From Medicago truncatula (lineage: Eukaryota; Streptophyta; Magnoliopsida; Fabales; Fabaceae), in the NCBI RefSeq assembly GCF_003473485.1, contig NC_053042.1, forward strand, positions 36,298,762-36,362,761: a stretch of DNA of 64,000 nucleotides. Direction: 5' to 3'. The position numbers and the translations under genes were made by a program. The notes under the pieces were generated by a model, which did not search any database, was not told the DNA's origin, and saw only the letters and a list, made by a program, of their open reading frames with translations. Positions 495 through 45,021 of the stretch are shown piece after piece; the stretch's first letter is position 1, and each line of letters opens with the position of its first letter.

Positions 495-3400
495 GGCACA
501 GTTAGTGACATTGCTTCTATAGCAGAAAAGAAAGTCGTACAAAACTTATTTAAGAAGAAGATGTCAGACCTCTTAAAATGTACTCAAAATGCCAACAGAA
601 TAGATGGTTCAGACAGCTCTATGCAGATTGATGCATCAAGTGATGTGTCTCAATCAGTTCTCAGGTGTTGATTATTTTCTATTTCTCTCAATTGTGTCTG
701 ATACTGGAATTATCTTATTTGATTTTTTGGTGTCAGTATTATTTAATAGAATTTCTTTTCATCCCAGGGCGCGGCTTCTTGATTTCGCAGTTTCATTGTT
801 GCCTGGATTAGATACAAAAGATATTGATTTATTATTTCAAGTATTAAAGCCAGCATTGCAGGTTTGTCGGAGATATATAATGCTCCTTGCAAGGAATTTC
901 TGAAATTTTGTTTTCAAATAGAAAAGTTAAGATGGTTATTGCGATCGTTATTTGCAGGATGTTGGTGTCATGCAGAAGAAGGCATACAAAGTTCTCTCGA
1001 TCATACTCAGGGTATTTGTCTTATTTCCTACTATTTGATTTTTCTTACTAATGCAGAAGTTTCAAATTATTTTAATATTTTGGTTAAAATGTTCAATCAC
1101 GGGTGTTGTCATGGTTATGCTTCTTCTATTTGTTTTTATTTATTAGTTTATTCTTCTGCGCTACTTCCATGTTAGAAAAACATTTCTGCTTACTTTTTTC
1201 TCGTTGGATTACTCTTGACAGAGCTCGGATAGTTTTGTTTCATCGAAGCTTGAGGTTCTGCTTGGGCTTATGGTTGAAATTCTTCCTTGCCATTCTTCTG
1301 CCAAACGCCATAGACTTGATTGCCTTTACTTTTTGATACTCCATGTCATGAAGTCCGAGGCAGTCAAAGTTGAGTTCCTTTACTTCTTAACAGTCCAAGA
1401 CTCGAAATCCAAGGTATCCAAAATTGGGTTATTGCATCCATTTTTGTCCCCTTAATGCACACTTTTGTTGTGGTGTATTTGATATGTTCTAAATATTGTC
1501 TTGTCTCATATTATACTTGTACTATTAGCATGAATAATCTGAACTTATGTACTGCCGACAGGATGATTCGATGGCCTGGCCAGAAGTTTTCCTCACTGAG
1601 ATAATACTGGCTCTTAAAGAGGTAATGCAGTGTTAATTGTGGAAACTTAGTTATGCAGTTTTATTTGTCCCTCTCCCTCATAGCATTTATTTTAATAAAT
1701 GAATCAGTGTATTTCTTTTGACTCTGCTCGGTTTTTTCTGGCATCAGTATACTCGTATATTTCTTGGGTATCCAGTATCCACACATTTTTTAGGTTTGGG
1801 GGTGAGTTCTAGGTTGTGAGCCTTCATGAGCCTAACCGGGAACTTCCTGGTCTCTCCACTCCTTGTTGGAAGTAGTGGTGAGCTGTTGCACATACAATAG
1901 CACACTGGGTAATTCAAATAGGCAACCATGTTCACACATTATGAACCTGTTTTTGTTGCTGCCATGTGTAAGACACTAAGATGAATAACATAACTGTTGC
2001 GTGCTACTGGTAACATCCAAAATGATGGTATTCAAGGAGTAAATAAACTCGGGCACTTATGATTCTGTAACGACCATCAAGCGGGTGTTCTCTACATATC
2101 ATGCCGACCCGTACTCTTCTGAGGTTCCAGCAAGCACATATTACTTCAATCACCAAGCACATATCCCCGAGTAAAAGTGATATATCTTTATAGTCGATAA
2201 AAATGCATTACTTTCATTCAACTTTGCTCTGTAATTGTTTTAAGTTTTTAAGTAATAGGATGGGATGGCCATTATTGTGTTTGCTCTGGCAATAAAATAA
2301 ACAGTCACTGATTGTTTTCTATTTGATTTTAGTTATTATGCGGGTATAATGTTCAGAAAGGAATCAAATGATGTTTGTACCAATGTACCTGACATCACTT
2401 TTTGCCCATCTAAATTAACTTCACAAGCTTCCAGAGGTGCTGAATTTTGAAGTTATTTTTACAGGCTAATAAGAAAACCAGGAACAGGGCTTATGACATT
2501 CTGGTCGAAATCGCCCATGCATTTGGAGACGAGGAGAGAGGTGGGAACAGAAATAACCTCTTTCAATTTTTTATCAAGGTAAATTTACAGTTTAATGTCC
2601 GTGCTTTTTCATCTTTATTTTACATATGTACACTTTGCCTTAACCATACCAACAGTAATTTGATTTTGTGCTGTTTTTTGAGCTTAGGTTGCGCGCGGCC
2701 TTGTTGGAAAAACTCCACATATGATAAGTGCAACCGTCAAAGGTTTAGCTCGCTTGGCCTATGAATTCTCTGACCTTGCTTTAACTGCTTTCGATTTGCT
2801 TCCATCTACTTTTGTCCTGCTCGAAAAAAAGAATAGAGAGATAACCAAGGTTTGTTTCATTTTCTATTTTGTTGGTTAAATGCATTGCTTACTGAAGTAA
2901 CATTTCCTTGAGCTATTAATTAAATATTTGTTTTCTCCCCGTAGGCCAATCTTGGTTTATTAAAGGTTTTAGTAGCCAAATCACAAGCAGAAGGATTGCA
3001 AATGCATCTGAAGAGCGTGGTTGAGTGTTTGTTTCAGTGGCAAGATGAAGCCAAAAATCATTTTAAAGCAAAGGTTTCTGTTTTTGTTATGTGATCATTT
3101 TTTAAAGGGAAATAATCATGTGATTTCATTGATTTGTTGAAGATTGTTGTTGTTTTGGAATTCAACCTATTTATTCATATTTTAAATGAGCTGAGATTCA
3201 AATTCTTTTCAGGTCAAACTTCTTTTGGGAATGCTCATCTCGAAGTGTGGATTGGAGGCTGTTAAAGCTGTCCTGCCTGAAGAACATATGAAACTTCTTA
3301 CCAACATACGCAAGGTTAGTTGAACAATATTTTGATGATTCTTTTATGTGAAAGTCTTCACGTAATTTTCAATCCATTGTAAAACAGATCAAGGAGCGGA

Positions 3401-5003
3401 AAGAGAGGAACCGAGGTGCTAAGTCTGAAGAAACTAGGTCTCAGGTTTCAAAGGCAACTACATCCAGGTATTGATCCTGTATTTATTTGCTTTATTCAAA
3501 ATGAAGAGAACTGGTTTTAATTACATAACCCTCTGCGAGATTTTGAATTTATCCACTTACATGTAGTGGCTTTCAAATTTATATGCTAATTTCTTGTATA
3601 TATTGAAGTTTAGTGAACTTCTACGGTTAAAAGTTATCAATATCGATGAAAGAATGGTTTTTAAGTTTGATTCACCGCTAATCTTTTTAAGATATGCACA
3701 GCACAGCCATGTTAACATTACATGCTTGTTGTGGCCAAAAATTGACACACTTTTTCTTCTGAATTTTGCAAGTGACAGAACATATATTAGTCCTATGGTT
3801 AGGGTTAGAACATATATCATGCACTTCTAAAGCCTTAGTCATTCTGTTTTATTTAATATTGTGCTATAATGAATTTGGAAGCTGTATCTTGAGTTGCATT
3901 TGGACAATGTGATGTCTTTTCCAGGAAAAGTAGATGGAACCATACTGATATTTTTTCGGAGTTTGATGGAGACAGCAAAGGTAGTGATGCAGAATACCTG
4001 AACGGCAAGACAATTTCTAGAGGGGGTAAATCTTCCACACATCTCAAATCAGCAGCATCTTCATTCAGGTAAGCTTTTAATTTGTCTGTTCATCTCATGA
4101 ATTTTGCTGTGACACTATGTTATTATTGTAATATACGCGAAGTCTTCATTCTTGGATTTACGTCTGCTTTCTATCTTTTTTTTTTTGGTATTGCATAAAT
4201 TGGCAGTGGTCCTTGATTAGTAATAATCGATCCTGTGATGAGTTATCCAGAACCTACAATAGCATAAAGTGTACTGTAAATCAATTTCAAGTAACATTGT
4301 TGTTACTTGTTCCATCTAGGTCCAAGATGAGACTAAAAAACAATATTCCAGAACCTACAATAGCATAAAGTGTCCTGAAAATCAATTTCAACTAACATTG
4401 TTGTTACTTGTGCCATGTAGGTCCAAGATGAGACTAAAAAACAATATTCCTGAGCACTTGTCTGACGAATCAGATGACGAGCCACTTGATTTGCTTGATC
4501 GGCAGAAAGTAAGGTCTGCTCTTAGATCTGAGAATCTCAAAAGGAAGTCAAGGTCAGACGATGATGAGATGGAGGTAGATTCTGAAGGACGTTTGATTAT
4601 CCGGGAGGAAGGGGAACAGACGGAGGAAAAACCAGCCGATTCAGAATATGATGCTAGGAGTGAGCCTGATAGTCATTTGTCTGCAAGGTCCGGAACTAAA
4701 GCCCAAAAGCGGAGAAGAACAGCAGAGCCTGGTAGGGCTGGTAGGGCTTACACTGGAAAGGAATATGCTAGCAAAAAAGCTGGAGGAGATATTAAGAGGA
4801 AGGATAAGCTTGAACCTTATGCATATTGGCCACTTGATCGGAAAATGATGAGTCGTCGACCACAACATCGGGCTGCTGCAAAAAAAGGTATGGCTACTGT
4901 GGTAAATATGACAAAAAGGCTTGAAGGCAAGAGTGCGTCTGGCGTGCTTTCTATGAAGAGTATGAAACTAAAAAGAACTCAAAAGAAAGGCAGCAAGCAA
5001 TAG
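495..5003 (+). CDS. RRP12: RRP12-like ribosome biogenesis protein, C-terminal half (5' part outside window)
   Basis: RRP12 is a nucleolar/nuclear ARM/HEAT-repeat factor needed for maturation and export of ribosomal subunits. Twelve exons are visible: 495-664, 768-861, 958-1011, 1222-1413, 1562-1621, 2465-2578, 2688-2849, 2945-3073, 3213-3314, 3388-3467, 3925-4068 and 4421-5003. They join in one open frame of 627 residues, equivalent to residue 667 onward of the complete copy at 19658-7287. Every junction is GT..AG and no frame is broken. The last exon encodes the acidic then Lys/Arg-rich tail, with basic clusters such as LKRKSR and QKRRR. Compared with the other copy, exon 4 here has 5 extra codons, exon 5 lacks 2, and the stop comes 3 codons earlier. 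A 101-bp tandem duplication doubles the last acceptor (first copy 4318-4319, second 4419-4420). Bases 1-494 are intron. The N-terminal half and promoter lie off the window, so intactness of the whole gene cannot be judged. Confidence 0.93.
4247..4447 (+). repeat. 101-bp tandem duplication spanning the last splice acceptor of the + RRP12 copy
   Basis: Two units, 4247-4347 and 4348-4447, repeat the end of the last intron and the first bases of the last exon. Each has its own AG acceptor (exon start 4320 or 4421). Splicing to the first acceptor reads into unit 2 and meets a TAA stop at 4366-4368. Only the second acceptor keeps the full tail. The - strand RRP12 copy has a single unit at the matching place (around 7881), so the duplication followed the gene duplication. 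Confidence 0.9.
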
Positions 5004-7286
5004 AAAATGTAGCAGCAGATTGATAGAGCCATGGTTTGCTGTAATTTAGTGTGTATTTATTTGATGATAAAAGAAAGCAGGTTTTTGGGTTTCAGTTTTC
5101 TTATACGGTATACACAAGAGGACTTGTGTTAAAATTTTGAATTAGATGCACCCGGCTTCAAGAGTGCTTATTGTCATAATTGTATTTTTTTTCAAAAAAA
5201 CGAAATATTGTTTAAATTGTACTGTCCAAAACTTTGTATTCTATCTTTGTTTTTTGTGATAAAACTAAAGCAAATTAATATTGAACATTATTTTTGTAAA
5301 ATATCTACGTGGCCGAGTTTTTCAATAGTAGTTAGCTATCCCTACTCGAGTCGATAAAAATTGATTTAGTTTGTAACTCAACTTGAGTTTGGCACTAACA
5401 TATTTTTTTTTTTTTGCTTAAATTCGACTCAATACAATTTTTATTTGTTAGTTTGAAACCCGTAATTCATATGCCAAAATTTAGATACCTGACCTTTTTT
5501 TTTTTTTGTTTTTTATGGTGTGCAAGATTCGAACCTTGGACTTTGCATATATTTTGCATTGTTTATAGAATCTTATAAATTATTTAATGTAAAATTATTT
5601 TTATTTTAATTTGTAATAAATAGATCTTAATTTTAAAAAAATATGAAATTTAATTTGAAACCGGTGACTAGTCAATTTTTTTTTTTTGGTGGTGTTTGGG
5701 ATTCGAACTCCGGACCTTTCTTTCTCCTTCGTTCATCGAGGAGGGGTGGTTTTAGGTCATTTTTTGACTTAGAATCATCCCTCTGCATCTTTTTCCCCTT
5801 TTCTTTCAATCTAAATGAGTGGTTTTCACATCTATCAAGTTTTTCCTTTTGTGTTTTTTGTGATTTCGTCGTTCAAGTGCGGCGTTGTGTTGCTCATCGT
5901 CTTGTGCAACGTTTGATTTCCCGTTTTATCGCGGTGTTTGTTCAGTTCCTATTGAAAGATCTACATCATTCAATTACAAATTCAACCAATGATTTGGACG
6001 TCAACGTTGCAGATTCGAAAGCATGGGTATTTCGGTGACTTAAGTTTTATCATATTATTTATAGGCATTTTGCCGCTGTATGCTATTAACTTGGGTGCTG
6101 TAAGTTTGTTCGCGATTCACCCTTTACGTTTTTAACGGTGTTTGTATTTGATGTACTCTATCGATTTGAATGGATGAATATCGTTTTGTTTTTGTCAAAA
6201 AAAAAAGAGCTAAACTCACGGGGGCCGGTGACTAGTCAATTAATTATGTTGAAGTTGACTTGAGTAAATAAAGTTTTCATTTTCAAAATAAAAATCCGGT
6301 TTGACGTTATAAAATCATCAATTTGTATCTCGACAAAAATTTAGTTTTTATTGTTGGAAAATAAATAATTTGTAAGAGCATCACACTAGTCTTATAAATA
6401 ATTGCTAGAGGAGGAAATAAAACTCCATTATTTTGAAATTTGCTAATCATTATGTAAGAAAATAATTCTCAAATAATTTTTTAGAATTTGCAAGAGGTTT
6501 TTAAATAAGACAGAGGTATTGTATTACACAATAATATAGATACAATTTTTAAATCTAAAAAGAAATGGAAGTTTCCATAGATACATACAAATAACCAAAT
6601 AAGAATCAACAACGACGACGATGATATCCACTCACGAGGTTACACAATCTAGTCTTCAATTACCATCGTCAAAAGTAGCCACCATCAAATTGTCATGAGT
6701 GGAAATCAATCTGATAGGTTTGTTGTACCAAAGATCTGACTCATGGCGGGAGACAGATTGTCAAATGGAGCAAGCCATCCTTAAGGGTAAAATGTAATAT
6801 TGATGCATCTTTTTCATCCCTTCACAACACATTGGGGATTGTTGTTTGTATTATGAATGAATGAGGAGTTTTTGTTTTGGATAAAACAAAATGGCTTCCC
6901 CTATTTGTGATGTATATGTTGGAGAAGCTCTTGGCTTACCTTCAACTCTTGGGTGCATAAATTGAATTTGGTGTCGGTTAATTGAGTTAGATTTCAAGAG
7001 GGTGGTATGATATTACCAAATTTGGTCCTATCATATCCCATTGTAAATCTATCCGTCAGCTAGTTTTCAGATATCGGCGGATAGATCATATTGTATTGAA
7101 TATATTTTAAGTAATGAAATGTTTCTTTCAACAAAAAAGTAATGAAATGTTATAATCCTTTTTGCTTAAAAGAAAAGAAAGAAAGCCGGGGCAAATAATA
7201 TACGACATCACTTGATTAAAAAAATTAACACAAGTGGTCGTGTATAAATACACTAAGTTACAGCAAACCATGGCTCTATCAATCTG
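5004..7286. other. Spacer between convergent RRP12 copies
   Basis: The 3' flanks of both RRP12 copies occupy the two ends, and a short shared stretch containing agccatggtttgctgtaa marks the paired 3' UTRs. Between them lie poly-T runs and a fragment at about 5489-5575 with a tRNA B-box-like ggttcgaatc on the - strand. A compound retroposon fills 5678-6224. From 6242 to about 7215 the DNA is AT-rich, and I recognise no gene in it. Confidence 0.7.
5661..6241 (-). mobile_element. 547-bp compound SINE-like retroposon with 17-bp target duplication
   Basis: The direct repeat ccggtgactagtcaatt occurs at 5661-5677 and 6225-6241 and brackets 5678-6224. Read on the - strand the element starts with a tRNA-like head (gtgagtttagctc) and ends with a B-box-like gttcgaatccc followed by an A-run against the target repeat. 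This is the layout of a retroposed SINE. Its interior is about 500 bp rather than a few tens of bases. It contains a + oriented segment ending in a poly-A run (about 6198-6207), as at a LINE or mRNA 3' end. Confidence 0.7.
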
Positions 7287-10200
7287 CTACATTTTCTTTT
7301 GCCTGCTGCCTTTCTTTTGAGTTTTTTTTTGTTTCATACTCTTCATAGAAAGCATGCCAGAGGCACTCTTGCCTTCAAGCCTTTTTGTCATATTTACCAC
7401 AGTTGCCATACCTTTTTTTGCCGCAGCCCGTTGCTGTGGCCGACGACTCATCATTTTCCGATCAAGTGGCCAATAAGCATAAGGTTCAAGCTTATCCTTC
7501 CTCTTAATATCTCCACCAGCTTTTCTGCTAGCATATTCCTTCCCAGTGTAAGCCCTACCAGCCTTACCAGGCTCTGCTGTTCTTCTCCGCTTCTGGGCTT
7601 TAGTTCCAAACCTTGCAGACAAATGACTATCAGGCTCACTCCTAGCATCATATTCTGAATCGGCTGGTTTTTTCTTCGTTTGTTCCCCTTCTTCCTCACG
7701 GATAATCAAACGTCCTTCAGAATCTACCTCCATCTCATCATCGTCTGACCTTGACTTCCTTTTGAGATTCTCAGATCTAAGAGCAGACCTTACTTTCTGC
7801 CGATCAAGCAAATCAAGTGGCTCGTCATCTGATTCGTCAGACAAGTGCTCAGGAATATTGTTTTTTAGTATCATCTTGGACCTAGATGGAACAAGCAATG
7901 ACATTGTTAGTTGAAATTGATTTTCTCGACACTTTATTCTATAGTAGGTTCTGGATGACTTATCAAGGACCACTGCCAATTTATGCAATACAAAAATAAA
8001 AAGATAGGAAGCAGACATAAATCCAAGAATAATGACTCCATTTATATTAACAATGATTACAGAGTGTACCAACAAAATTCATGTGATGAATAGACAGATT
8101 AAAACCTAAAGCTTTACCCAAATGAAGATGCTGCTGATTTGAGATGCGTGGAAGATTTGCCCCCTCTAAAAATTGCCTTGCCGTTCAGGTATTCTGTATC
8201 ACTACCGGCACTGTCTCCATCAAAATCTGAAAAAATATCCATATGGTTCCTTCTACTTTGCCTGAAAAAGATATCACATTGTTCCAATGCATCTCAAGAT
8301 ACAACTTTAGAATTCAATATAGCACACATATTAACTACAAAAGAATGATGAAGGCTTTAGAAGTGCATGGTTTTAAAAATACAAGACTAACCATAGAACT
8401 AATATATGTCCTGTCACTTTCAAAATTTAGAAGAAAAAAATGACAATTTTTGGGGACAAGTACCAAGCACGTCACTCTAACATGGCTGTGCATGTCTTAC
8501 AACAAAGCTTAGTGGTGAACCAAACTTAAAAACCATTTTAGCATAGCTATTTATTACTTTTAACGGTAGAAGGTCACTAAACCTAATTATACACAAGAAA
8601 TTAGCATATATTTGAATTGAAAGGCCACTACATCTAAGTGCAAGAGGATAAATATTCAAAACCTCAAAGGGTTATGTGATTGAACAGTTTCTCTTCATTT
8701 TGAATAAAGCAAATAGATACAAGATCATTACCTGGATGTAGTTGCTTTTGAAACATGAGACCTACTTTCTTCAGATTTAGCACCTCGGTTCCTCTCTTTC
8801 CGTTCCTTGATCTGTTTTACAAATGGATCGACAATTACACGAAGATTTGAACATAAAACAAAATATGCATTTGGTCCTTGCTAAAAAAAAAAAAATTGAT
8901 TTATACCCTTGAAAGTTTCATTTTTTTTAAAAAAGTTCTTGATGTGTTTTTTTAATCAAAAAATGCCGATGTGGTCAATTTTTGCTGACGTGGCACATGT
9001 AATGTTGCTGAGCTGACCAATTTGTGCAGATGTGGCCCTGATGACAAAAATATGACATGCTAACTTGTAATTTTTTTCATGCTCGTTAGAACTCTTCAAC
9101 TCATACCAAGAATCTTAATCATTCTTTATCTCTAATCCAGAAATTAAAAAACCATCTATCTCTGAGATTGTAATAGTATGCATCTTCCTTCATTTACCTT
9201 ACCATTAGACACACATCACTCCACTATTATTTTGTATGATGAGATGGCAACAAAAATTCATTGGTGAAAACTACGAATCAGAAGAGGATTTTAAAAGTTT
9301 GCAGAAAATGCATGTAACAACAAGAGAGAAGGTCCAGGCAGCACAGCACCACACTTGATGAGAGTAAAGACACCACAAACTTGAGGGTACCTTCCTGATT
9401 TCAGTAAAAACATCACCCACCCGCTTCCTCCTTGTTAATTCCTCCCCCACACGCATCACAGCCTCCATTGTGCTATCCTCATTCCTCGCTATGATACGTG
9501 TGCACTCTCTTTAACCTTCACCCCCCCCCCCAACAGAACATCACACAGCGCCATCGCCGGCCTGATCTTTGCCCTCATCACAACAACTAGTGGTCAGGAA
9601 CTATGATTCCGAGGACAGAGATTCTGACATGCGATAGAGACCGCACAGCGACATTTTGGAGGTCATAGGGTTCAAACTCAGACGAAGGAGAAAAACTAAT
9701 CTAACAACTAATTACTAATATTTGCCATTAAAAAAAAATCCACAAAAGGCTCTCATTTATTCATTTTTGGGGTTCTAGGAGATCAAAGAATGTATGGATG
9801 AAGAAGACTGGGTTAGGTTTTGGAAATGAACAACAAAATGTAGCAATAAATTTGGGTTATTGCAAAACCAACATAGATCTGATATAAAAAATAAGTTCAC
9901 CAATGAGTTGGTTTCAGACTATACGAATGTTAGTGAGATGTTGAGGGGTGGGAGGCGAATTTAGGAGCTGTTGTTGGTGATGTGAATAGAATGTTGTGCA
10001 GGGTTCTGGGTCTAGCTGAAGAAGGTTAAGTTTTTTTTTTTTTGCTTTTTGGGCTTGAAGCTCAACAATGTTCATGAAGATTCAGATTTCTAGTTGATGA
10101 ACCCCTAAATTACTTTTTTACAAATTTGTGTTGATGTTTTTATTATTTGTATTAAAGAAGCTGATTGGGAACGGAAGTGAAACATCAAACCCATAGAATT

Positions 10201-13200
10201 TGTTCTCTTTCAAGTGCCCATCTGGATTTTGATTAATTCGTTCTCTTTCTTCTCCCTTTCAATGTTTTGATGATGGTATGTGATAGCAAGGTGAAATTTA
10301 AATTTTAAAATATGATTTTGACTAATTCGATTGACAATGGTAGTGATTTAGATCTGGAAATTTGTGGGGGTGAATAAGGAGACACTTGGGGTTGAAGATG
10401 AAGACTGATGGACTTTTTATCTTTAATTCATATACTGATTAATTAAATATATTAAAAGAATAATTAAAGGTAATTATTATTTTAATAATAAATAATGCCC
10501 AGTCAGCAATACTTACACAGTCAGCATGTGCCGCATAAGTTTAAATTGGCCAAATCAGCTAAAATTTCACCTTAAGGACTTTCTTAATTATTTTTGAAAA
10601 TTACAGGATATAAATCACATGTTTTTTGCAAGAACCAAAACTCGCAATATTTGCAAGGTCTAAATGCATATTTTAGCCTAAAAGAATTATCAAAATGATT
10701 CAACAAACCTTGTGTATGTTAGACAGAAGTTTCATATGGTCTTCAGGCAGAACAGCTTTAACGGCATCCAATCCACACTTCGTGATAAGCATTCCCAAAA
10801 GAAGTTTGACCTGAAAAGAATTTGGTTCTCACTCGTTCAAAATAAGAATGAATAGCTTGAATTCCAAAACAACAGTCATCCTCAACAAATCAATGAAATC
10901 ACATTGATTCTTTTTCTTTAAGAAACGATCACATAAGAAAACAAAAACCTTTGCTTTAAAATGATTTTTGGCATCATCTTGCCACTTAAACAAACACTCA
11001 ACCACGCTCCTCAGATGCTTTTGCAATCCTTCTGCTTGTGATTTGGCTACTAAAACCTTTAATAAACCAAGATTGGCCTGCAGGGAGAAGACAGATATTT
11101 AATTAAGGGCTCAAGGAAATGTTACTTCAGTAAGCAATGCATTTAACCAGCAAAATAGAAAATGAAACAAACCTTGGTAATCTCTCTATTCTTTTTTTCC
11201 AGCAGGACATATGTGGATGGAAGCAAATCAAAAGCAGTTAAAACAAGATCAGAGAACTCATAAGCCAAGCGAGCTAAACCTTTGATTGTTGCACTTATCA
11301 TATGTGGAGTTTTCCCAACAAGGCCGCGAGCAACCTTAGCTCACAAAACAACACAAATTCAAATTACGGTTGGTATGGGTAATGCACAGATAGTACATTT
11401 TTCTACCAATAAGAGCACAAGATGATATCAAGTGGAACCAAATAAAATAGAAGATGTAAAAAGCATAAATTAAACTGAAAATTTACCGTGATAAAAAATT
11501 GATAGAGGTTATTTCTGTCCCCACCTCTCTCCTCGTCTCCGAGTGCATGGGCAATTTCGACCAGAATTTCATAAGCCCTGTTCCTGGTTTTCTTATTAGC
11601 CTGTAAAGATAACCTCAAAATTTAGCCCCTCTAGAAGCTTGTGAAGTTAATTTAGATGGGCAAAAGTAATGTATATGATTAACATCTCTTGATTCCTTTC
11701 TGAACATTATATCCACATAATGACTAAAATCACAAAGAAAACAATCACAGACTGCTTATTTTATTGCCAGAGCAAACACAATAGTGGCCATCCTATCCTA
11801 TTAAAAACTTAATACAGAGTGAAGTTGAGTGAAAATAATGCATTTTTATTGACTATAAAGATATATTACTTTTACTCAAAAGTGATATGTGCCTGGTGAT
11901 TGTCCGTCATATGTGCATGCTGGAATCTTAGAAGACTATGGGCCAGCTTGATATGTAGAGAACACCCGTCTGATGGTCACTATGAAATCATAGGTGCCCG
12001 AGTTTATTTACTCCTTAAATACCACAATTTTGGATGTTGCCAGTAGCATGCAACAGTTATGTTATGCAACAAAAATAGGTTCATAGTGTGAACATGGTTG
12101 CCTAGTTGCCTTACCCAGTGTGCTATCGTATGTGCAACAACCACTACTTAAAACAATAAATGGACATATCAGGAAATTCCCAGTTAGGATCAGGAAGGCT
12201 CGCAACATAGAACCCACCTCCACACCTAAACATGTGTGGAAATTGGATACCCAAGAAATGTACTGACGCCAGATAAAACCGAGCAGAGCCAAAAGAAATA
12301 TACTGATTCAGTTATTTTAAGAAATGCGACATTGGAAAGGGCAAATAAAACTGCATAACTAAAAATTTCCATAATTAACACTGCATTACCTCCTTAAGAG
12401 CCAGTATTATCTCAGTGACGAAAACTTCTGGCCAGGCCATCGCCATTGACTCATCCTGTCGGCAGTACACAAGTTCAGATTTTTTATGATATACTATAAT
12501 ATGAGACAAATATGGATGCAGTATCCCAACTTTGGATACCTTTGATTTTAATAAGTAAAAGAACTCGTCTTTGAATGCCTCTGACTTCAAGACATGGACT
12601 ATCAAGAAGTAAAGGCAATCAAGTCTATGGCGTTTGGCAGAAGAATGGCAAGGAAGAATTTCAACCATAAGCCCAAGCAGAACTTCAAGCTTCAATGAAA
12701 CAAAACTGTCCGAGCTCTGTCAAGAATGATCCAACGAGAAAACAGTAAGCAGAAATGTTTTTCTAACATGGAAATAGCTCAGAAGGATAAACCAATAAAT
12801 AAAAACCAATGCAAGATAATTTGAAACTTCTGTGTTAATCTGAAAAATCAAATAATATGAAATAGACAAATACCTTGAGCATGATCAAAAGAACTTTGTA
12901 TGCCTTCTTCTGCATGACACCAACATCCTGCAAATAATAATCACAATAACCATCTTAGCATTTCTATTTGAAAAATAAGTTTCCGAAATTCCTTGCAAGG
13001 AGCGCTATATATCTTGGACAAACCTGCAATGCTGGCTTTATTACTTGAAATAATAAATCAATATCTTTCGCATCTAATCCAGGCAATAATGAAGCTGCGA
13101 AATCAAGAAGCCGCGCCCTGGGATGAAAAGAAATTCATTAAATATTACCGACACCCAACAAGCACATAATAGTAAGATGCAGACTGGACTAAAACCTATT

Positions 13201-13965
13201 TCCAATTTCACAAAAAATAATTGAAAAATCAATTAGACACAATTGAGAGAAATAGAAGATAACCAACACCTGAGAACTGATTGAGACACATCATTTGATG
13301 TATCAATCTGCATAGAGCTTTCTGAATCGTCTACTTTGTTGGCATTTTGAGTGCATTTTAAGAGATCCGACATTTTCTTCTTAAATAAGTTCTGTACAAC
13401 TTTTTTTTCTGCTATAGAAGCAATATCACCAATTGTACCCTGTAAATGAAGCAAAGTCATCATTATAAACTTCTTGTACAAATCAAATGTAACAAATAAG
13501 GAGAAATTTAATTCTCAGCTGTCAGGTAATCAAGAAACCAAGAAAAAAATAGACTACTTCATCTGTTCATGAAAAACATTATCAGAATGATGAAGATCTG
13601 TTGGTTGTAGTTCTGTTATGCCATATATAAGTATAAATTCTATTTCTATATTGACAATTGAAGGACCTGGTTGAACACTTCTAGAGCTTTTTGCTCAAGA
13701 TTTCTACTCATAGATAACTAAGGAGCAATACAAACCAATAAGCTCAACAAGCCCACATAATCACTGTTCGAGTTTTTAAACTAAAGATGGATATTTCTTT
13801 AGAGAGAGGGGGGTGTATATTGTCATATATTTACTTCAATTTTAACATTAACTTATTTACTAGGAGCGAAGTGAGCTCGGACAACGACATACAAATGCAA
13901 AATATCGTATAACTCCAAAACCCAAAATGCTGGCAACTGGTGAGAATTATTTTGTTGACATCACA
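7215..13965 (-). repeat. Right arm of the RRP12 inverted duplication
   Basis: This arm matches 1-5150 in reverse complement over exons 7-18 and the introns between them, apart from the transposon at 8863-10679. Beyond about 13965 the partner sequence is outside the window. Within the last exon the two proteins differ at about a dozen positions, most of them conservative. Confidence 0.9.
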
Positions 13966-16900
13966 CATATATGAAAGCTGAAACGTGCACACTGGATGAT
14001 TAAAGAATTGCATAGCACATATGAATGCAACAGAAAAAGAAAAGTGACATAAACAGAAATGCAAACTCTAGTTTTATGTTATACTAACATGCATGCACAT
14101 ATAGAAGACACAATTCATATATTTGGCTCAACTATGGTGCATACTGCAATGAAGAAAAAGTACCTGCAAACAACCACCGTCATCTTTTGTAGATTTCAGG
14201 AACGCGTCTGACAGATCTTTCAACAAATTATTGGCAGATATCTCCAGTGCCCTCAAATTTTTTGTTGCAACCTGTTGCGAGTAATTATACAAGACTTGTT
14301 GTTTGTCCATATCTTGCCTACTATCATCCTTATCATTTGAATCCTTAATGTTCTTGTTTTGTCTAATCAGAAGCTGCAAACTAGTGCATATTATTCCACG
14401 AATATTAGGTTCTTCTTTTAGTTTACTACGTAAATGTTTTTCTAGATCCTTGAAACTTTTAGCTGTGTCTGAAGGATAGTTACAAAATGAAGGCAGCAAA
14501 GACCACAAAGAGTAAACAAGTGTGTCTGCTTTCATCAGTTCTTGCTTCTCAAGCTGCAAAATGCACAACGTAGGAAATGAATACCATGAAGAAAAATAAC
14601 ACTGTATCTAAAAAAAAATATGTCCAATACCTTTTGAGCCTTCTCCCTTGCACGTTCAATCATAGGCAAAATTTCCTCTGTAAAATATTTTAGACGTGCA
14701 CCAACAATATACTGTTTTAGAATTGGAAAAAGCCATTTATTTGAGACAGATAAATCTTCAGCTTCCAAATTTAATGTTATAAGGGACAAAAAAGTTTCGG
14801 GTCCCATTGCAACAAGAGCTGACCCAAGGCATGCATGAAGCTGCACGGCATAGAATATAGCAGTACTTCACGTCAGTAATTTGTAGCACATAAAAAAAAA
14901 TTAAAGATCAAAAAGATTTCCAGATCCTCTAACAAAAATCAACATAATTATGATACTGGCTAAATAACAAGGTTGTTACAGAACGCCTATTGGCTTTTGA
15001 AATCATGAATACCATAATATAATACAATTCAAAAGACATTCAACTCTGTTACAGGTCAGCCCATATGAGAAACTGTTCAAAATAGGGGCATATGGTCCTG
15101 CTGGGAAAGAACATATCAAAACTCATTTTATAAGATTGAGTTTCATATTTGTGTAGTTTGGCAAAAAAAAAAAATGCAACATTGAAAAGATAGTGACCTG
15201 TTTCCTAAAGGGAAAATTTTCATCAGGCAGCTGCTGCATATCTTCCATGTTTTTGAGTATACCTCTCATAAAGTAAGGAGAGTTACTTCCTGCATTAATT
15301 ATAGCAATAATCTAAAAAATAAGTAACAGGAATTGTGTAATGAAATTATAGGAATTTGTACACAAATATTTAAGAGAAAAAACAGGAGAAGTATAACAAC
15401 AGTTGTACGCATTATTATTAGTCAACAACAACAACCAGCCTTATCCCACTAAGTGGGGTCGGCTACATGGATCAAATTACGCCATTATGTTATATCATAA
15501 ACCATGTTTGGATTTAACTCATTAATCTCTAAATCTTTCCTAATAGTTTCTCTTATAGTTTTTGTAGGTCTTCCTCTACCTCTTGTGATATGACTATCCT
15601 CCATCTTCTCTACTCTCCTTACTATAGAATCTACAGGTCTTCTCTCTACATATCCAAACCACCTAAGCCTATTTTCCACCATCTTTTTTACTATAGGTGT
15701 TACCCAACTCACTCTCGAATGTTGTCGTTTCTAATATCTAATCTTAGCTGTCTATTCTTACCACGCATCTAACGCAACATCCTCATCTTCGCTATGCTTT
15801 GCTTTATTCTTGTGTTTGTTTTTACCCGCCCAACACTTCCATACAACAACGCTGATCTGACAATTGTCCGATAGAATTTTCCCTTCAACTTGAGTGGTCC
15901 TTTCGTATCGCATAAAAACACCCGAGGCTCGTATCCATTTCAACCACCTAGATTGAATATGATGATTTACAACTTGAGTGGTAACTTGGGGTATGATATG
16001 ATCTCCAACTTTAACCTCTAAGCTAGAACATTTTTTTAATGGCCCTCTAAGGTAGAACTACTTTGCCTTTTGCTGAAATTACATTCCATATACTCTGTCT
16101 TGTTTCCACTTAAATAGAAGCCATACGCTTCCAAGACTTGTCTCCGACGTCCCATTCAATTTCTCCTTCGACTCTCCACGCATGACTACATCATCTACAA
16201 AAAACATACACCTAGGTGCTAACTCTTGGTTGTGATATGTAAGTGCATCAAACCCCTCCTATTGTTATGAGAAAATCTTCTGTAACCCCATTCTGCATCC
16301 TCAAACTAGTCAAAGCTCCCGCGTACGTATCCTTTATAGCTCTAATATAAGCAATTCTAACCCCTTTCTTCTCTATGGCTTTCCACAAAATCTCTCTAGA
16401 CACTCTATCATACGCTTTTCCAAATCAATGAAAACTAAGTGCACATCTTTTTTATCAGTCTGATATCTCCATCACATGTCGAAGTAAGTAGATTGCTTCC
16501 ATAGTCGACCTTCAAGGCATAAATCCAAATTGATTATTGGTAACTCGAATCTTTTTCTTAGTCTCCGCTCAATCACCTTTTCCCATAACTTCATGGTATG
16601 ACTCATAAGGTTAATTTCCCTATAATTTGCACAATTTTGTATATCGCCTTGTTCTAATAGATCAGAATTAAAGTGTTTCTTCTCCACTCATCCAACATTT
16701 TCTTTGTCCTCGTAATTTCGTTAAAAAGTTTGGTTGGCCACACAATTCCCCTACCTCCAAGAGTTTTCCACCCTTCAATAGGTCTGGTCCAACTGCCTTG
16801 CCATTACTCATCCTTTTCAATGCTTCTTTTACCACATGTTCTTGAATCCGATGATAGTAGTTATAGTTTCGATCCTCCTCTCTGATGTCTAGCATGTTAG

Positions 16901-19658
16901 AGTATGGTAAAATCTCATATCCTTCATTAAATAAGTTATGGAAATATTTCTTCCATCTATACTTTATACTCTTTCCTGAACCAAAACATTACCTCCTTCA
17001 TCTTTAATACACTTCACTTGATCCAAGTCTCTTGTTTTTCTTTCTCATCCCTTAGCAAGCTTATATATAGATTTTTCTCCCTCCTTGGTGCCTAAAGATT
17101 GGTATAATCTGTCAAAAGCTTTTGAGTTTTTGCTTCGCTCACCGGCTTCTTGCTTTCTTTCTTAGCTATCTTGTATTTTTCCCAAGTTTCGGAATTTTTA
17201 CACCTAGACCAATCTTTAAAACATTCCCTTTTGATTCAAACTTAACTCTGAACACTATCATTCCTTTTTGTATAGATTATTAGTCAAATACAATAAATCA
17301 AACTAACAAATGACTCAACCAGCAAATTATATAAATTATAAGTCAATACAATAAACAGAAACAAGACTTGACAACAATCAAAATACCTAATTTGTGAAAC
17401 ATAGAGGAAACAACTTCAAATACTCTGTCCCAGGCAGCAGCGTAGTGATAATCAAGTAGGCTCTCAACAGTTACACATATTTTCTCGATAATGGTTGGTC
17501 CTGACATCCTTGATTCATCCAGAGTTATCTGATCCACTCCCTGTTTAATCAAACTTTCATCAATGCAACAGTTGATCATGCTCTTGAGTGCCTCTGTGGC
17601 TGCAAGTATGGCCTCTTCATGTTCAGATGCCAAAATATCTGCACATTTAAAAGTAAGTACACATATTTCCGTAGTTGCCAAAACAGGTAACTAACTATAT
17701 GCGCAAACACAATTGAAATTCATGATACCTTTGAGGTCATTAAAGACACTAGGAAGCTTAACTACACACATTTGCCTGTTTAGGGAAAAAACTCTCTTCA
17801 TTCCAGCATCAAGCAAGCGAGCAATAAATGTCATACCATCTCCAGAGATCTCAGTTGATGAGGCAGAAAGAGATGATAATGTGCATAACACCTCAAGTAG
17901 TGCTTCAGGGGAAACTTCCGATGTTGGGTTAAGACTGAGAAAATTTAAACCATCCATTATGCGCCTTGTGACTAGGGGTTGACCCATATTTAAAAGAGTT
18001 TTGAAGTGGTTAAGAATGTTGGTCTTGTATTTTAGAGACAAGAAAGGAAGGCATTCTTTCAAGGCATCAAGAATATACAAAACTAGTTGGGCTCCCTTAG
18101 TTCCATCACCATCATTTGCATTTGCTCCCTTAGTTCCATCATCATCATTTGCATTTGCTCCACCGGCCAGCAGTAGAAAACTTTCAAGTAGGTTTTTGAC
18201 CCCTTCACTTGCAGATGCTAATAGCGAAGAATTTTGAAAATTTATCAAGACATTGCGGAGACACAAATGAGATTGCCTTCTTACCTGTTGGAAGAGAACC
18301 AGTCTATTAAACTAACCAAAAGTCATGTAACCTTGCTACAGCTGCCCCTTGCCCCCACAGTTCACAATAGTAATAATTTTTACACAATATAATAATACAC
18401 GAACACACAAGCTTGGCAAATTAAAAAAGTGCAACATGTCCCACTCCCAACTATTACAACCCGTCTTGTGCTCTAACTCGGCGGAATGTTTGAAATGAAA
18501 AGGGCAAATAAGACAAATCCTAGACCATCTCGTTTTAAATAACAATTATATATGTCAGAGCTTTTTCATCAAAAAAATTGTAACCAACCGACCATGATGG
18601 TTGAAGCTGAAGATTGTATACTAGACCGGACCAAACAAAAACAAAAGCAGTGTAAAACTTGTGTTAGGATAGCATCACCTAAGTTTGATAGTCTTACAAA
18701 AATAAAGACATCAATCTAATAATATCCTATAAACTGTAGTATATGCACTAAAGTAATTATCAATATTGCATCTCTATTTCAGGATTTGGATGTTCTAAAG
18801 TGAGAAAATCAAGTTGTTATTCAAACAAGCTCATGAGTCATGATCTGTTATGATGTACCTACAATGCCCACCATTGATTTGTTGATTAACAGCTAATATT
18901 ATTTATAGTACACTCTAAAGTGAGTTGCTCACTTTAGAGGAGCCTGATCCCCAGTTTCACATCTGTTTAGCTCCCGATAGTAACCATCAGATTATTAAAC
19001 GTTTGACTTTAATCATAACTACTTCTAAAGTGACAAATATCATTGTGATTTGTTGACAATGCAAAGCTTTTTACAGCGAGAGTATAACAAGTTAAACTTC
19101 AAACTTAGTTTACAAGTAAAACCCTATCAGATAGAAAATTTGAAATTCACGAATTGTTACCTTCAGTCTCGAATCAGTAAGAAAACCTAACAAGAAATTG
19201 AACAATGTTGATACATCAGACCAATGAACACTATCCCTATGAATCAACAAATGTGAAACACACTTCAATCCATGAACAACAGCGCTCTCTGAACTGGACG
19301 GCAACATAACAACTTTTGTAACAAGCTCCGATAGAAACTCTCGCTTCTCCTTCAACACAGCAACGGGAACTTTAAACATAACAATCGAGAGAAATGTTAA
19401 AAGTGCGTCCATGAGGTGGATAGGTGGATTAGGTTCCGATGCAGTGCGGTCCAGGGAGGAGCATGTGGCACAGAAGTATGCGACAGGTGAAGAAGAGAGG
19501 TTGTGATCTTTGAGTTCCTGTGACATTGCGCCGATGACGGCACAGAGGTGTTGGTGGTTTACAGCGGTGGAGTTTGAGAAACGAGAGAGAATTGAATTGC
19601 ATATATCATCGTTGGATTCGTTGTTGAATGTTGATTCCTCCATCTCGATTCCTTCCAT
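7287..19658 (-). CDS. RRP12: RRP12-like ribosome biogenesis protein, complete
   Basis: Eighteen exons, listed 5' to 3': 19658-19161, 18284-17729, 17638-17387, 15289-15198, 14840-14631, 14553-14164, 13439-13270, 13117-13024, 12927-12874, 12716-12540, 12455-12390, 11600-11487, 11334-11173, 11077-10949, 10810-10709, 8811-8732, 8261-8118 and 7881-7287. They give 1294 residues, the usual size for RRP12. The protein is largely helical-repeat; the family's NUC173 region should fall near residues 400-600 (inferred from the family). From about residue 1097 the tail is acidic, then Lys/Arg-rich with nuclear-signal-like clusters (LKRKSR, QKRRR). RRP12 acts in the nucleolus in pre-40S/60S maturation and export. 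Exon 2 carries an in-frame 33-bp repeat. Intron 3 holds an RTE LINE and intron 15 a TIR transposon; both lie in intron and spare the frame. The start was chosen as the first Met of a long open exon with no upstream coding signal. Confidence 0.95.
8863..10679. mobile_element. 1.8-kb TIR DNA transposon (MULE-like, non-coding) in RRP12 intron 15
   Basis: The intron is about 1.9 kb here but only 73 bp in the + RRP12 copy (3315-3387), which supplies an empty site. The ends are imperfect inverted repeats: atatgcatttggtccttgc on the left, and on the reversed right end aatatgcatttagaccttgc. Subterminal inverted matches (cagcatgtgcc type) lie further in. Flanks show a decayed 8-bp duplication (aaaacaaa at 8855-8862, aaaagaat at 10680-10687). 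No transposase frame is visible. A C-run lies near 9520. Confidence 0.7.
15414..17287 (-). mobile_element. 5'-truncated RTE-type LINE in RRP12 intron 3
   Basis: A perfect 12-bp direct repeat, attattagtcaa, lies at 15414-15425 and 17276-17287, so the insert is 15426-17275. Read on the - strand it carries broken reverse-transcriptase pieces. These are an EALKRMSNGKAVGPD block near 16800, a DIQNCANYREINLMSHTMKL block near 16600 and a C-terminal LRWFGYVERRP block near 15640. The 3' end is a GTT-repeat tail next to the target repeat, as in plant RTE LINEs. Several frameshifts and stops show it is dead. It covers almost all of the intron that separates exons 3 and 4. Confidence 0.88.
18091..18156 (-). 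repeat. In-frame 33-bp tandem repeat in RRP12 exon 2
   Basis: Two 33-bp units, 18091-18123 and 18124-18156, differ by a single base. They encode two 11-residue units (GANANDDDGTK and GANANDGDGTK) in an acidic, probably disordered loop. The repeat keeps frame, and slippage could change its copy number. Confidence 0.85.
18911..18937. repeat. Perfect short palindrome in RRP12 intron 1
   Basis: ctctaaagtga and tcactttagag form 11-bp arms around a 5-base loop. The core tctaaagtga recurs near 18794 and 19023 in the same intron, suggesting a degraded MITE. Confidence 0.7.
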
Positions 19659-44068: not shown

Positions 44069-44270
44069 ATCAATCAAAGAATATTTAGAGTTAGACAACT
44101 TGAGACTCAAAATTACCTATCCCCTAAATATTCTAATAAAGAAACTTAAGAACTTGTTGGAAAAGGACCATCAATCAAAGAATATTTAGAGTTAGACAAC
44201 TTGAGATTCAAAATTACCTATCCCCTAAATATTCTAATAAAGAAACTTAAGAACTTGTTGGAAAAGGACC
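44069..44270. repeat. Recent 101-bp tandem duplication
   Basis: Units 44069-44169 and 44170-44270 differ by one base (gagact versus gagatt). The unit ends ttgttggaaaaggacc. It lies in the CtpA/HAD promoter interval and shares no sequence with the 101-bp duplication in RRP12. Confidence 0.92.
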
Positions 44271-45021
44271 ATAAACTAAAGATCTTAATCCTGATAAGTG
44301 AAATAACATCTAAAATATATAACCAACATTAGTGTCCTTAACATTTAACTTAATCCTCCAGTTTTTCCTCTAATTTTTCCTTTTTTTAATAATATATATG
44401 AGCAATTGACAACAGACTACAACAATAGGTGCCAATTTAGTTGGACACTATTATTTTTGATGTCATTTTGCTCTTGACTTATAAAAAAAATTTCCTAAAT
44501 AAAAAAAACATTTTAACTTAACCCACCCTAAAAGAAACATCTAAGTGTGTGTTTGGTTCCGGAATGTGGATAATTGATTTTGATTTTATAAAATTAATTT
44601 TGGTTAAAAATAATTATGATTAAAAATAGTTTATGTTTGAATATATTTATGTAAAAGTGGTTGAATAATATATAAAAATTAATTCTAAAATAAAAATTAT
44701 AAAAGTATAATCAATTCTACTCGACAACATGTGAATCAATTCTAAACCTCTGAATCAATTATGAACTTCCCTAACTTAACTAGCAATTATACTTTTAAAA
44801 CTATGCAATTGTGTGTGTTGACAAAATGTTTCTGATAGTTGGATTAATTTTGGAAATTTCCGTTGGTCACTTCACTTCGTCCCACACAAAAAGCACAACC
44901 TCAGAAAAGTACCAAAACCAGAAATCTGACATCAGCAGCACCCACCCACCCAAAATCATCAGCATCACAAATATTAATCATAATATTCTCATTATCTCTC
45001 TATTCTACTCTACTTCACTAG

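Follow-up and report, generated by a model that had tools for sequence, protein, structure and literature searches.

The last intron/last exon boundary of the plus-strand RRP12 gene in the analysed window, a stretch of 64,000 nucleotides of Medicago truncatula DNA, carries a 101-bp tandem duplication that is a real, diverged copy of a 3' splice site. The most probable reading (probability of approximately 0.54) is that the upstream copy is a weakened decoy, with 4421 as the main junction and a minor isoform joined at 4320. Among the literature matches listed, this RRP12 duplication was not found.

The window carries two RRP12 genes, arranged tail to tail. The plus copy runs in from the left window edge (12 exons at 495-5003, with an open reading frame), and the second copy lies on the minus strand at 7287-19658, where an 18-exon model encodes 1294 amino acids. 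The minus copy model matched PF25772 (E 3.2e-107) and PF08161 (E 1.7e-80), the N-terminal and central HEAT-repeat domains of RRP12. The domain scan covered this model; the plus copy, which is cut by the window start, was assigned as a paralogue that is close over its visible part (dN 0.045). In the coding sequence common to both copies, dS was 0.168 and dN/dS was 0.27, and the pair has thus been under constraint. Furthermore, a 302-amino acid plus copy query, including 109 residues before the last exon, aligned to the RRP12-like chain 7wts_K up to residue 1270 of that chain (E 3.9e-12), so that the plus copy possesses the conserved C-terminal tail of RRP12. We take 7wts_K to be the human RRP12-like protein. 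The penultimate exon of the plus copy (3925-4068, plus strand) is followed by the donor CAG/GTAAGC, which scored 9.59 (itself in the training set) versus 1.61 to 11.06 in 28 leave-one-out donor scores. The last-intron donor of the minus copy is TGG/GTAAAG (8118, minus strand), with a junction residue of G versus R in the plus copy.

The duplication consists of unit 1 (4246-4346) and unit 2 (4347-4447), both on the plus strand and each made up of 74 nt from the intron end and 27 nt from the exon start, with differences at 5 of the 101 sites. A sequence-only reading of this DNA had already claimed a 101-bp tandem duplication at this boundary, which was confirmed; its start had been placed at 4247, one base inside the start of unit 1. 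The boundaries of the duplication can be shifted by up to 3 nt, as the TCC at 4246-4248 occurs again at 4448-4450, a 3-nt microhomology at the outer edges. The duplication had a TRF score of 375, which is beyond chance. The minus copy has one unit, in a single unduplicated homologous stretch (7855-7955, minus strand; exon start at 7881, CTAAC intact), and the duplication is therefore most likely later than the duplication of the RRP12 gene. The divergence between the units in their intron part was about 0.070 (0.026-0.148), versus 0.163 for the pooled introns of the two genes (introns 1-8 and 10, 2016 sites; intron 9 was omitted because of its size difference and intron 11 as the subject), an age ratio of 0.43 (0.16-0.91). 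The minus copy was rejected as the source of unit 2, given that the two units show 5/101 differences between them, and units 2 and 1 show 11/101 and 12/101, respectively, relative to the minus copy. The last exon itself may have undergone gene conversion, as its dS was lower (0.114 versus 0.193 in the other exons).

Alternative 3' splice site pairs, which include NAGNAG and longer tandem acceptors, join one donor to two acceptors and give two mRNA forms. The plus copy resembles such pairs in having two AGs with an acceptor-like context after one donor. It differs from the usual tandem acceptors in that the two sites are 101 nt apart, the whole acceptor region is duplicated, the frame shifts into a stop and the pair is known from sequence alone. 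The AG of acceptor 1 is at 4318-4319 (plus strand), from which the exon would start at 4320, and that of acceptor 2 is at 4419-4420 (plus strand), with the exon starting at 4421. A scoring matrix was built from 27 further acceptors in the RRP12 pair; it gave the two sites 4.99 and 4.78, the top two values for any AG scored from 4069 to 4500, and a lower leave-one-out score was seen in 4 of the 28 modelled acceptors. These 28 acceptors, and the introns to which they belong (17 of the minus copy and 11 of the plus copy, without its last), are not independent, as they include 11 paralogous pairs. The frame from 4320 reads SKMRLKNNIPEPTIA and then meets a TAA at 4366-4368 (plus strand), after 15 codons; the frame from 4421 remains open up to the stop at 5001-5003, giving a last coding exon (4421-5003, plus strand) that encodes the conserved acidic and basic tail. 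Both the near equality of the two acceptors and their respective outcomes, an early stop and the full protein, had been described correctly in the sequence-only reading. The duplication length of 101 is not divisible by three. When the terminal 74 nt of the 28 introns were read in all three frames, 65 of the 84 frames contained a stop, and the early TAA is thus expected rather than special. The choice between the acceptors may, as that reading proposed, act as a switch, but this role is conjectural.

Using the minus copy as the outgroup, three derived changes were assigned to unit 1 (unit positions 28, 32 and 46) and two to unit 2 (66 and 71). Unit position 46 corresponds to window position 4291, the C of a branch-like CTAAC, which was changed from C to G in unit 1. 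The predicted branch-like motif of unit 1 is accordingly a derived GTAAC (4291-4295, plus strand), and the ancestral CTAAC is retained by the minus copy and by unit 2 (4392-4396, plus strand; predicted). The change at unit position 71 falls on base -4 of acceptor 2. The AG context of unit 1, ccatctag, is still the ancestral one found in the minus copy, and unit 2 was changed near its AG; each unit thus preserves a different half of the original site. The remark in the sequence-only reading that acceptor 1 matches the acceptor of the minus copy is correct for the AG context, and the proposal that the ancestral acceptor has become the decoy is half right: both acceptors descend from one site, and the branch region, with its CTAAC in unit 2, had been overlooked. 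Between -60 and -15, no YTNAY match was present for acceptor 1, while 24 of the 28 introns had one, acceptor 2 and the minus copy having CTAAC. Among the other 28 introns, three had GTAAT as their best match. YTNAY was not enriched over shuffles in the 28 introns (24 observed versus a shuffle mean of 23.3), and the loss of the motif is therefore weak evidence.

The C-to-G change at 4291 is also predicted to complete a perfect 9-bp hairpin with a 4-nt loop (4288-4309, plus strand), in which 4288-4296 pair with 4301-4309 and the GTAAC is enclosed. In a 51-nt fold of the inferred ancestor, this change alone lowered the predicted energy from -7.6 to -13.8 kcal/mol, the local values being -13.8 for unit 1, -8.9 for unit 2 and -6.0 for the minus copy. 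The unit 1 fold had a z of -3.53, with 1 of 200 shuffles equally good; the change at unit position 46 tied as the strongest among 222 single changes, and a fold as good as that of unit 1 was reached by 37 of 3000 units with three random changes. No perfect 8-bp hairpin was seen in any of the other 28 intron ends of 74 nt, and shuffling unit 1 gave one in 179 of 20000 trials; the hairpin statistics are post hoc, having been sought after the repeat output had been seen. The unit 1 motif was unpaired with a probability of <0.01 in a 441-nt context. Folds of the whole 101-nt units reached -16.6 for both (z of -1.61 and -1.40; 17 of 200 shuffles as good, each), and the energy of the 74-nt end of unit 1 (-12.3) was ordinary, with 7 of the 28 intron ends as low or lower.

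In unit 2, the branch A of CTAAC had a predicted unpaired probability of 0.109 in the 441-nt fold and 0.195 in the unit alone, and the first three letters of the motif had values of 0.894, 0.834 and 0.763 in the 441-nt context; for the branch A in the unit of the minus copy alone the value was 0.928. The AG of acceptor 2 was predicted to pair with the first bases of its unit (unpaired probability of at most 0.003 in folds of 101 and 202 nt), yet was half open when 60 nt were folded; that of acceptor 1 was mostly open in the predicted folds. The change at unit position 71 alone does not strengthen the fold (rank 150 of 222). A temperature series showed almost no change up to 60 C; it was not trusted and no inference was drawn from it. 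With the unit 1 motif hidden, and the AG and largely the branch A of unit 2 paired, both acceptors are handicapped in these models, and the winner cannot be told from the sequence. A precedent for the effect of such a hairpin is theophylline-controlled splicing, in which, according to the excerpted text of PMC2275289, ligand-induced sequestering of the branch sequence inhibits splicing. In both systems, a branch sequence that lies within secondary structure would be expected to see less use; that system is engineered and ligand-controlled, whereas the RRP12 hairpin is natural, predicted and without a ligand.

In the preferred reading, a tandem duplication through short homology copied the whole 3' splice site of the plus copy, comprising the branch region, the pyrimidine stretch, the AG and 27 nt of the exon, and full-length RRP12 is obtained from the downstream copy only. 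Unit 1 afterwards lost the C of CTAAC, and the same change closed the predicted hairpin over the motif. Both features point to a weakened decoy upstream, in which case the majority of transcripts would be joined 4068/4421, and a minor 4068/4320 isoform would encode a tail-less RRP12 and probably be lowered by decay. The open, conserved tail also speaks for this reading, although weakly; the equal AG scores, the YTNAY shuffle result, the equal whole-unit energies and the predicted pairing in unit 2 weigh against it.

The product of the 4320 junction would keep 11 native last-exon residues followed by PTIA, and would lose 182 of the 193 exon-encoded residues. The truncation point precedes the stretches of the tail that are common to 7wts_K, namely DEPL..LD, GRLIIREE and a basic region ending PYAY.PL.R. 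In the excerpted text of a study in fungi (PMC13291541), every RRP12 C-terminal truncation made in yeast was cold-sensitive, the truncated RRP12 of a thermophilic fungus still enters 90S and pre-40S particles, and fungal RRP12 without its C-terminal region joins pre-ribosomes and disturbs decoding-centre maturation. The truncated product corresponds to this form with a known ribosome-assembly defect and, by analogy, a tail-less plant RRP12, if made, could be mildly harmful rather than merely absent. The suggestion that the upstream junction yields a nonsense-decay substrate stands in altered form. As the TAA is located in the last coding exon, there is no exon junction 50-55 nt or more downstream of it, as the exon-junction-dependent route of nonsense-mediated decay (NMD) would have, and decay would need a long 3'UTR, barring a 3'UTR intron. 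The stretch between the TAA and the end of the native stop (4369-5003) already makes this 3'UTR at least 635 nt long, which is above the 300-350 nt or more at which plant NMD targets mRNAs, as given in the portion of PMC5040709 drawn on here.

The foremost rival explanation is that both acceptors are used at comparable levels, giving full-length RRP12 alongside a tail-less form, or else decay substrates with a long 3'UTR, in a balance that could be regulated. The equal AG scores fit with this, as does the predicted folding, which would hide an element of each site. A truncation point lying ahead of the shared tail motifs, together with the fungal truncation phenotypes, is likewise consistent with it. 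However, the early stop is at the chance level for intron sequence. We regard comparable use as possible, but on balance unlikely.

A second rival holds that acceptor 1 is the main site, such that the plus copy encodes mostly truncated protein and is covered by the intact minus copy. Acceptor 1 is the upstream site, has the ancestral AG context and an AG that is predicted to be mostly open, and an intact second RRP12 copy does exist. However, its branch motif is changed and enclosed in the predicted hairpin, and the tail of the plus copy is open for 583 nt, with a low dN of 0.024 and a dN/dS of 0.21 in the last exon between the copies. The argument from the tail is weak, with a Bayes factor for a constrained versus a free tail of 1.6-3.7 in an estimate scaled to the last-exon dS, and tail conservation thus weakly favours full-length use. 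This scaling was used because an estimate with the pooled intron divergence, which was rejected, fitted neither the constrained model (P 0.012) nor the free one (0.00014). Predominant use of acceptor 1 is considered improbable.

A structure-gated splice switch, in which the unit 1 hairpin and the paired AG of acceptor 2 would keep two handicapped acceptors balanced, is a decidedly doubtful proposal built on the predicted folds. Opening conditions would then set the dose of tail-less RRP12, with the minus copy as a constant supply, and the tail-less protein would join pre-40S particles and slow decoding-centre maturation.

Intron gain, or two-step splicing, would employ the AG/GT at 4318-4321 as a donor and remove 4320-4420 as a new 101-nt intron, and its product would equal the 4421 mRNA. 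The geometry is that of the potato RdRp gene PGSC0003DMG402000361, likewise a plant gene with a duplicated intron 3' end and start of the next exon, as described in the excerpted text of PMC4974935. In both genes the putative branch site, pyrimidine tract and AG were all copied, and the copies differ at ten nucleotides in the potato gene and at five in the plus copy of RRP12. According to the same excerpts, the upstream exonic piece in potato provided a GTAAG donor, and so an intron was gained, the new intron being spliced out (106 RNA reads). In contrast, the sole GT in the 27-nt exonic piece of RRP12 is a very poor donor (TAG/GTCCAA, -1.23), and the outcome would thus be two competing acceptors. 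The re-formed CAG/GTCCAA scored 1.54, so that both are below all 28 modelled donors (minimum of 1.61), and among the GTs farther downstream within 4320-4420 the highest score was 1.55. Intron gain and recursive splicing were rejected on account of this donor weakness, and both are very unlikely. An assembly artefact is scarcely credible, as the units differ at 5/101 sites, each with changes absent from the minus copy, which argues against a doubled read, although another tandem duplication at 44069-44272, also with a period of exactly 101 bp and with 1/101 differences, could be either a coincidence or a hint of an assembly read-length effect.

The locus constitutes a natural experiment, with one gene that has a duplicated 3' splice site next to a paralogue that has a single one, few differences between them and a simple readout. 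It would test the fate of acceptors made by duplication, whether noise, branch-point silencing or regulation. The contrast between a new intron in the potato duplication and apparently none in RRP12 is worth explaining.

Several further observations were made. The BLAST match between them stops at 5060 and 7244, shortly past the stop codons. A search for hosted RNA genes with Rfam, at gathering thresholds, gave no match anywhere in the window. One intron of the minus copy (8812-10708, minus strand) is 1897 nt long versus 73 nt in the plus copy, a large insertion. Another intron of the minus copy contains reverse-transcriptase-like remnants (15400-17250, minus strand), judged by eye to be an apparently decayed LINE-type insertion. 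In exon 2 of the minus copy (18091-18161, minus strand), an in-frame 33-bp repeat doubles an 11-amino acid acidic stretch (GANANDDDGTK / GANANDGDGTK).
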